Assembly: GCF_014596745.1 (NCBI RefSeq)
Contig: NZ_JABTCF010000001.1
Span: 62,001 to 126,000 of the forward strand
Reading direction: 5' to 3'
Source: Maribacter aquimaris
Lineage (GTDB): Bacteria > Bacteroidota > Bacteroidia > Flavobacteriales > Flavobacteriaceae
Length of the DNA: 64,000 nucleotides
The translations under genes were made by a program, and so were the position numbers. How positions within the stretch are numbered: the stretch's first letter is position 1; every line of letters starts with the position of its first letter. Of the stretch, positions 24,634 through 26,421 are shown in pieces. The notes beneath the pieces are model-generated. The model ran no database searches and was not told where the DNA came from. It was given only the letters and a program-made list of their open reading frames with translations.

Positions 24634-25014
24634 TTAGCCCTCATAGCATGTAAAACTTCCATCGCTATAGAAAATAACGATTTTATCTATGGATTTCTTC
24701 CCTTTGGCCTTTGGGATGTTTTTTTCAATATTTTCCAAAGCAGGGGCAAGAGGCTTCACTTCAGGTACTTTAGTAGTTGTTTTTTTTGAGGCAGGAAAAC
24801 TACCTTTTCCTTCCAACAACCAATACAGGTCCACTTCAGGAATCGCCTTGACGACTTTCATCACAAACTCCAGACTAGGTTTATTTCTTCCTGAAAGTAA
24901 GTGGGAGATACTGGACCGCTGCACCTTGATCTTATCCGCAAAAGAAGAAGCCGACAAGTCGTAATAGCGAAGAATTTCCTCCAAACGTTTTATAAAATCA
25001 CCAGTGTTTACCAT
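24634..25014 (-). CDS. XRE-family helix-turn-helix regulator
   Basis: A 126-residue DNA-binding protein. The XRE HTH occupies about residues 8-62, with LSASSFADKIKVQRSSISHLLSGRNKPSLEF showing the two helices and the turn. A Lys/Pro-rich linker follows (KVPEVKPLAPALENIEKN), and the C-terminus ends KIVIFYSDGSFTCYEG, a short tail that seems conserved in this flavobacterial type. The ligand is unknown. It is divergent from the M14 gene. Its own promoter and start codon carry two of the palindromic boxes described separately, so autoregulation is probable. Confidence 0.9.
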   Translation of the reverse strand: MVNTGDFIKRLEEILRYYDLSASSFADKIKVQRSSISHLLSGRNKPSLEFVMKVVKAIPEVDLYWLLEGKGSFPASKKTTTKVPEVKPLAPALENIEKNIPKAKGKKSIDKIVIFYSDGSFTCYEG

Positions 25015-25040
25015 TGTAATTTATTGGAATACAAAGGTAA
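25008..25040. promoter_or_regulatory. Two operator-like palindromes at the XRE gene start
   Basis: TTACC-AT-TGTAA (25008-25019) covers the start codon and ATACA-AA-GGTAA (25029-25040) lies upstream, 21 bp apart, two helical turns. The second contains the regulator's -7 box (TACCTTTG on the minus strand, 25032-25039), so part of its match may be promoter, not operator. Confidence 0.5.
25032..25039 (-). promoter_or_regulatory. -7 promoter box of the XRE regulator gene
   Basis: On the minus strand it reads TACCTTTG, a perfect TAnnTTTG, 18 bp from the start codon and embedded in the second palindrome. Confidence 0.48.
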
Positions 25041-25120
25041 TAAAAAGATATTCCATCAGGAGTGAATATATCCATAATTGATAGTTCATAATTAAACATA
25101 AACTTCATTTAAAGTATGAT

Positions 25121-25156
25121 AATAAACTGATATACTATATTATAAGATAGTTTATT
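25121..25156. repeat. Long-loop inverted repeat between the XRE and M14 promoters
   Basis: Arms AATAAACT (25121-25128) and AGTTTATT (25149-25156) are perfect complements with a 20-base AT-rich centre. It lies between the two palindrome groups. A cruciform, a further protein site or chance in AT-rich DNA are all possible. Confidence 0.35.
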
Positions 25157-25187
25157 GCAATATCATAATGGATAGGAATGCCTTTGA

Positions 25188-25264
25188 TTACAATTCTAAA
25201 TAAAACACATTACAGATGTAAACAACATAATATACAATTGTAAACACAGTGATTACAAATGTAA
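25188..25264. promoter_or_regulatory. Four phased operator-like palindromes upstream of the M14 gene
   Basis: TTACA-AT-TCTAA (25188), TTACA-GA-TGTAA (25210), ATACA-AT-TGTAA (25232) and TTACA-AA-TGTAA (25253) are spaced 22, 22 and 21 bp start to start. Two are perfect palindromes. The last lies where the -33 region should be, before a near -7 box TACCTTAG at 25278-25285. Bound protein on one helical face could repress or activate the M14 gene. Confidence 0.65.
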
Positions 25265-25308
25265 TTTATTATGATGTTACCTTAGCGGCGTTGAAATAAA
25301 GATCAAAA

Positions 25309-26421
25309 ATGGCAATTACCCAAGACACTTATAATTCAGTAAAAGAAAGGACCTTAAAAGGTAGGTACATAACCTTAGATCATATAAAACCGATTCTTGA
25401 CAAGCTACCAGATAATTTTCAAGTTCAGGTTATGGGTCACTCCGTTAATAAGTCCCCCATTCATGCGGTTACTTTTGGAACCGGTAAGATCAAAATATTG
25501 ATGTGGTCACAAATGCATGGAAATGAATCCACCACGACCAAAGCCGTTTTTGACCTGTTTAATCTATTCCAATCGAATTCCAAGGGCTATGAAGCTATTT
25601 TAAGGAACTGTACCATTAGGGTTATTCCAATGCTCAATCCTGATGGGGCTAAAGCCTATACCCGTATCAATGCCAATAAGGTTGATTTGAACAGGGACGC
25701 CCAGGAAAGGACTCAACCAGAAAGTAATGTGTTGCGTAAGTGTTATGAGGATTTTCTGCCTGACTATTGTTTCAATCTTCACGGGCAACGTACCATATTC
25801 AATGTAGGGAACACCCCAAAACCGGCCACGGTTTCATTTTTAGCCCCTGCTTTTGATGAAGAACGCAGTATTTCCCCCTCAAGGGCACAAAGTATGCGTT
25901 TGATTGTTGCGATGAATAATGTGTTACAAAACTTGATACCTGGTCAAATTGGACGCTATGACGATGGTTTTAATGCCAATTGCGTGGGCGACACCTTTCA
26001 AATGTTGAATATCCCTACCATTTTATTCGAAGCAGGCCATTATTTCGACGATTATGAACGGGAGCATACGCGTAACTATATTTTTACAGCACTGCTTACT
26101 GCCTTGGAGGTGATTTCAGGGGACATCGTCAATAGTTTTAAAAAGGAAGAATATTTTGGCATTCCCGATAACAACAAATTGTTTTATGACATATTGATAT
26201 CAAATGCACACATTATCAATCCCAGGAAATACAAGTCCGGGGACGCTATCGGGTTACTCTTTAAGGAAACACTTCAAAATGAGCAAATTGCTTTTATACC
26301 CCACATCGAAAAGTCCGGAAATCTTCAAAATTATTTTGGACATAAAACCTATGACTGCAGTCAAGAAAGTGATCTATCTGCATTAAAAAACCAAACTTTC
26401 TGGAACCTCATAAAGTCCTGA
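25309..26421 (+). CDS. M14-family zinc carboxypeptidase, cytoplasmic
   Basis: A 370-residue metallopeptidase without signal peptide. Zinc ligands are His70 and Glu73 in SQMHGNESTTTKA and His158 in FNLHGQRTIF; the Glu of LFEAGHYFDDYE fits the catalytic residue. PMLNPDGAKAYTR and NKVDLNRDA are M14 substrate-binding features. M14 enzymes cut C-terminal residues from peptides or amide groups from modified amino acids. The cytoplasmic location suggests peptide turnover or cell-wall peptide recycling. A phased palindrome array lies upstream and an Lrp/AsnC regulator gene follows. Confidence 0.87.
   Translation: MAITQDTYNSVKERTLKGRYITLDHIKPILDKLPDNFQVQVMGHSVNKSPIHAVTFGTGKIKILMWSQMHGNESTTTKAVFDLFNLFQSNSKGYEAILRNCTIRVIPMLNPDGAKAYTRINANKVDLNRDAQERTQPESNVLRKCYEDFLPDYCFNLHGQRTIFNVGNTPKPATVSFLAPAFDEERSISPSRAQSMRLIVAMNNVLQNLIPGQIGRYDDGFNANCVGDTFQMLNIPTILFEAGHYFDDYEREHTRNYIFTALLTALEVISGDIVNSFKKEEYFGIPDNNKLFYDILISNAHIINPRKYKSGDAIGLLFKETLQNEQIAFIPHIEKSGNLQNYFGHKTYDCSQESDLSALKNQTFWNLIKS

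Follow-up and report, generated by a model that had tools for sequence, protein, structure and literature searches.

Between a regulator gene of the XRE family and a divergently transcribed M14 carboxypeptidase gene, Maribacter aquimaris carries a series of short palindromic boxes. Which protein binds these boxes, and why are they so regularly placed? We addressed this question in the window, the whole stretch of 64,000 nucleotides that was analysed, and in related genomes of the Flavobacteriaceae. In our main reading, to which we assign a probability of about three in four, the boxes are operators of the adjacent XRE protein, and their two groups are held at a constant rotational phase, most likely because a repression loop acts on both promoters.

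Boxes, promoters and genes of the locus

An initial annotation, made from the letters of the window, listed six palindromic sites that start at 25008, 25029, 25188, 25210, 25232 and 25253, with spacings of 21 bp in the first group and of 22, 22 and 21 bp in the second. All six sites were recovered and the spacings are exact. Compared with TTACAnnTGTAA, the sites have 1, 2, 1, 0, 1 and 0 mismatches, respectively, and the two perfect palindromes noted at the time are those at 25210 and 25253. The annotation had also cautioned that the 25029 site contains a -7 box. This caution was justified, as the weakest of the six sites (2 mismatches) falls on the -7 box of XRE, TACCTTTG, read on the minus strand (25039-25032), and it was therefore dropped as an operator. 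The features are as follows.

24634-25014, minus strand: XRE-family regulator gene, 126 aa (Pfam HTH_3), single copy in the genome
25008-25019, no strand: O_X, putative operator TTACCATTGTAA, overlapping the XRE start codon at about +9 to +20 of XRE transcription
25032-25039, minus strand: XRE -7 promoter box TACCTTTG, fitting the TAnnTTTG consensus (PMC9723704)
25040-25187, no strand: AT-rich spacer, the putative loop, with no strongly conserved block
25188-25199, no strand: S1, putative operator TTACAATTCTAA, 65 bp upstream of S4
25210-25221, no strand: S2, putative operator TTACAGATGTAA, perfect, in a slot that is often empty in relatives
25232-25243, no strand: S3, putative operator ATACAATTGTAA, 21 bp upstream of S4
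25253-25264, no strand: S4, putative operator TTACAAATGTAA, perfect, the right anchor, 245 bp from O_X
25279-25286, plus strand: M14 -7 promoter box TACCTTAG, which is TACTTTTG or TACATTTG in relatives
25309-26421, plus strand: M14 zinc carboxypeptidase gene, 370 aa (Pfam PF00246, 47.9 bits), the putative divergent target

Promoter positions were computed with the -7 box, of consensus TAnnTTTG, set at -12 to -5 (PMC9723704). On this scale, S4 is centred at about -33 of the M14 promoter and spans about -38 to -27, and in relatives the -7 box begins 25 bp after the start of the box in the S4 slot. O_X is kept in most XRE-bearing loci, where it is the left anchor of the phase-locked distance described below. 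Among relatives, the commonest spacing between boxes is 21-22 bp, and the distance from S4 to an upstream box peaks at 63-66 bp.

Single sites mean little because the motif at up to two mismatches shows no excess across the window (53 matches vs 49.8 expected from shuffles); the signal thus lies in clustering and conservation. By comparative evidence, the boxes appear to be functional, with the consensus TTACAWWTGTAA. The phased pair TACANNTGTA-N10..14-TACANNTGTA has two matches in the 4.86 Mb genome, which overlap and both lie here, and the reversed control pattern has 0. It is present at the same locus in 11 of 12 Maribacter genomes, with one off-locus match among all of them. Perfect boxes also stand singly at other places in the genome; their contexts are unrelated, several are intragenic and none is part of a phased pair, and a search of the genome by isolated perfect boxes and phased pairs revealed no wider regulon. 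A single off-locus phased-pair match was recorded at G009:C135:20567-20597 (L127).

The XRE protein matches HTH_3 (PF01381) at 30.7 bits against a cut-off of 23, which places it in the XRE / HTH_3 family. Its AF2 model, built as a monomer, has a confident five-helix HTH domain (helices within residues 4-68), followed by a disordered linker and a C-terminal beta hairpin (111-125) that holds the conserved motif IVIFYxDGSF. The flexible linker and the conserved hairpin may have a role in oligomerisation. Across 139 XRE proteins, the recognition helix QRSSISHLLSGRNKPS hardly varies, and the nearest PDB folds found by Foldseek include C.AhdI, C.BclI, SinR and the 434 repressor (2or1, 3cro). As expected of an autoregulator, a palindromic putative operator lies at the gene's own promoter or start and is conserved with the gene.

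The M14 gene was found in 306 of 397 family genomes, and the M14 of the nearest relative, M. polysiphoniae, is 92% identical. Its product has no obvious signal peptide and is thus probably cytosolic. An Lrp/AsnC gene lies downstream of M14 and is syntenic with it; in L045 and L021, which belong to the same MAG, about 770 bp more lie between M14 and the Lrp start than in other loci. A second M14 paralogue (G000:C1:172003-173055, L031) is 36% identical, has a longer open frame, is conserved in Maribacter and lacks the phased box pair.

Boxes follow the XRE gene across the family

We compared 158 non-redundant Flavobacteriaceae loci, comprising the 80 nearest M14 loci (the first set), 5 from the Maribacter group and 73 from across the family. 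Most of the 80 nearest loci have boxes, mainly TTACAWWTGTAA. A divergent XRE gene is present in 141 of the 158 loci (in L045 only partly, at a contig end), and every one of these 141 has at least one box with at most one mismatch within 170 bp before M14, while 116 of them have two or more. Such a box occurs in only 2.4% of shuffled upstream regions. Among the 17 loci that retain M14 and lack XRE, 15 have no box and 2 have one relic box. The association between box and XRE is strong (Fisher p 4e-19, with kinship ignored). On the best M14 tree, whose support is moderate, XRE was lost in about 6 events, 3 of them on well-supported branches; with so few losses, an independent-pair sign test cannot reach significance.

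The XRE-less loci of the first set keep the order lipoprotein, gap, M14 and Lrp, usually with TerC beyond the lipoprotein. No XRE orthologue was found elsewhere in any of the 14 XRE-less genomes tested, and the phased pair is absent from 13 of these 14; the remaining one has a single off-locus match (G013:C381:6808-6838, L159). The two relic boxes belong to L067 and L081, recent losers of XRE and sisters to the XRE-bearing L072. Each occupies the S4 slot; the box of L081 is perfect and that of L067 has mutated, a picture that resembles decay following the loss of XRE. By contrast, Lrp is present in all 80 first-set relatives, whether or not they bear boxes. Homologous regions without boxes, or a spacing free to drift, had been named in the initial annotation as evidence that would speak against its idea; the comparison was run and did not speak against it.

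Outside the Flavobacteriaceae, XRE homologues from other Bacteroidia families share about 30-47% identity and, in most cases, the helix QRSS[IV]SHxLSGRNKPS. They adjoin other genes (by eye TypA, RecF, a TonB-dependent receptor, Fmt and others), and those without an M14 neighbour have a box near their own start (L264-L271, L273 and L275). XRE autoregulation thus looks ancestral, and control of M14 looks specific to the Flavobacteriaceae and near kin. In two loci of family f33 without M14, L264 (1906-2183) and L266 (1207-1461), a second box cluster lies about 206-209 bp from a strong box near the XRE start, which suggests that the loop may predate its M14 partner.

Helical phase between the two box groups

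In 133 loci, the distance was taken between the best XRE-side box and the M14 box just ahead of the -7 box; seven XRE-bearing loci have no scorable XRE-side or promoter box. The distance is 245 bp in the window. Across the loci, distances cluster at 202-204, 211-214, 221-226, 230-236 and 241-247 bp, with peaks at about 204, 213, 223, 233 and 244 bp, and are empty at 205-210, 215-220, 227-229, 237-240 and 248-254 bp. About ten of the 133 loci fall outside the main peaks (e.g. 174, 179, 189, 255, 258, 259, 270 and 454 bp). The best-fitting period is 10.5 bp, with a Rayleigh R of 0.70, and thinning by tree to 97 tips leaves R at 0.67; none of 2000 sets with a jitter of up to 5 bp rose above 0.38. 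When disjoint tree pairs are compared, 36 of 66 differ by 0-2 bp. A difference of 3-14 bp is seen in 19 pairs, and in 13 of these it is 9-12 bp (binomial p 0.002 for uniform steps). These quantised natural distances show two operator groups with helical-phase-dependent spacing, as is expected of a looping repressor.

Other distances show no such lock. Pooled ATG-to-box, box-to-ATG and ATG-to-ATG distances give R values of 0.20, 0.17 and 0.22, and the intergenic length controls, M14-Lrp and XRE-lipoprotein, give 0.16 and 0.10. Within classes of box position, start-codon distances are partly periodic (R 0.36-0.67) because the boxes sit near fixed positions relative to the starts. In some loci the left box falls on a TAnnTTTG match some 30 bp before the XRE start, and the phase of these loci is nearly equal to that of loci with a box at the start codon (3.3 vs 2.5 bp of 10.5). 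The same-face phasing proposed in the initial annotation is thus supported, and it extends to both groups, which are separated by about 220 bp; the phase lock between the groups is a new point. Whether all sites lie on precisely one face of the DNA varies with the value taken for the helical repeat, and the phase is constant either way.

The length of the spacer varies by helical-turn steps among relatives. Its GC content is 19%, and IHF-like matches are mildly enriched (16 loci vs 4.6 in shuffles). A curved spacer was considered and dropped, as A-tract periodicity at 10-11 bp was not found. A weak TTTAAAGTA element is seen in the spacer of 14 loci, and another weak element, TTTAAAGTAT...ACTGATAT, at 25104-25140 of the window, is shared by a few relatives (e.g. 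L248 and L227).

A proposed repression loop and its alternatives

We propose that XRE dimers occupy O_X at the XRE start codon and the phased array S1-S4, whose promoter-proximal end covers the region around -33 of the divergent M14 promoter. With the rotational phase between the two groups fixed across some 200-245 bp, or 20-23 helical turns, the bound dimers would be able to touch and to close a DNA loop between the divergent promoters. The loop would repress both regulator and peptidase until a signal, possibly related to peptides or amino acids, releases it. Since S4 lies across position -33 of M14 and O_X lies within the first part of the XRE transcript, occlusion is the simplest action, and it is from this promoter overlap that we infer repression and not activation. 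The phase lock over 20-23 turns finds its best explanation in XRE-XRE contact between the groups, that is, in a repression loop. In its broader form, the proposal is that a small non-phage XRE with a beta-hairpin C-terminus loops divergent promoters across most Flavobacteriaceae, and that selection keeps the loop at whole-turn lengths, hence the discrete 10.5-bp spacer classes; this we hold to be slightly better than an even bet.

In an alternative reading, XRE would control both promoters locally, and the phase would arise from something else kept on one face of the DNA, e.g. a curved or HU-wrapped spacer or contact between two promoter complexes, with no XRE-XRE loop. Both anchors overlap promoters, and the low GC content and mild IHF-like enrichment of the spacer would fit. 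However, the pooled phase follows the boxes and not the start codons (0.67 vs 0.17-0.22), classes with differing left-box positions have nearly the same box phase, and the spacer has neither the A-tract periodicity nor a conserved block, so that we consider local control unlikely. An origin of the palindromes by chance in AT-rich DNA, or by common descent with no function, would agree with single boxes being no commoner than chance in the window, but such an origin is refuted by the comparative data and is scarcely credible: qualifying boxes are rare in shuffled regions and universal in the XRE-bearing loci, and they are gone or decaying where XRE was lost.

Two other proteins have to be weighed as binders. 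Lrp-type proteins bind phased multiple sites, and the Lrp/AsnC gene downstream of M14 is syntenic with it, which makes its product a candidate for the array. Yet this gene does not explain the array: none of the 80 first-set relatives lacks it, not even those in which the array was lost with XRE, and boxes also accompany XRE homologues elsewhere for which neither an M14 nor an Lrp match was seen; binding by Lrp is largely refuted and seems very improbable. A repressor of the CopY/BlaI family, with TACANNTGTA as its operator, is equally hard to sustain. The core of the cop box is identical to the box core here (PMC7253601), and the genome has two PF03965 genes, but no TACANNTGTA palindrome lies near either of them and the boxes follow the presence of XRE. 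The binder is almost certainly the XRE protein and not Lrp/AsnC, as far as comparison of loci can tell. Of the cooperative control of regulator and peptidase suggested in the initial annotation, joint control by an autoregulating XRE is upheld, with boxes that track XRE through its losses and sit at the starts of its homologues, whereas Lrp/AsnC as a binder is not.

Comparison with known systems

The looping XRE proposed here resembles the phage lambda CI OL-OR system and the 434 repressor in its HTH_3 fold with a 434-like DNA-binding domain, in several short palindromes about two helical turns apart, and in autoregulation, divergent promoters and a putative loop. Unlike these repressors, it is cellular and has a 12-bp operator, TTACAWWTGTAA; unlike CI, it lacks the CI-type C-terminal domain, and its disordered linker is followed by no more than a beta hairpin of 15 residues. 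The CI OL-OR loop of lambda is about 2.4 kb, whereas the loop proposed here would be about 200-245 bp. C proteins (C.AhdI, C.BclI) and SinR are likewise small HTH_3 regulators and among the nearest PDB folds, and autoregulation by C proteins acts through palindromes close to the start of their own genes. However, their operators differ, and the partner here is a peptidase instead of a restriction-modification or biofilm gene. In LacI and GalR repression loops, experiments show that the spacing of operator pairs must keep helical phase (e.g. PMC1762422). The operator pairs here also have helical-phase spacing, although the regulator family is unrelated and the phase dependence comes from natural orthologues and not from engineered spacings. 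The CopR-CopY cop box shares the TACANNTGTA core, but those regulators are winged-helix PF03965 proteins that respond to copper, and the XRE/M14 locus has no PF03965 gene.

To our knowledge, most of what is known about looping repressors comes from a few model systems with engineered spacing, and transcription control has been little studied in this phylum. The open-licence literature searched held nothing relevant on phase-locked orthologous loops, on XRE with M14 or on the motif in Bacteroidetes, and the main text of the F. psychrophilum TSS paper does not mention the gene pair. At this locus, natural variation over an entire bacterial family brings a phase requirement to light, and about a hundred natural loop lengths become usable for testing looping theory. 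If the loop is real, nature would have repeated a helical-twist experiment in about a hundred lineages. What the locus offers is a regulator with its putative operator, one target locus and a loop open to experiment; in addition, a dedicated regulator is linked to an M14 peptidase that is widely conserved, uncharacterised and probably cytosolic.
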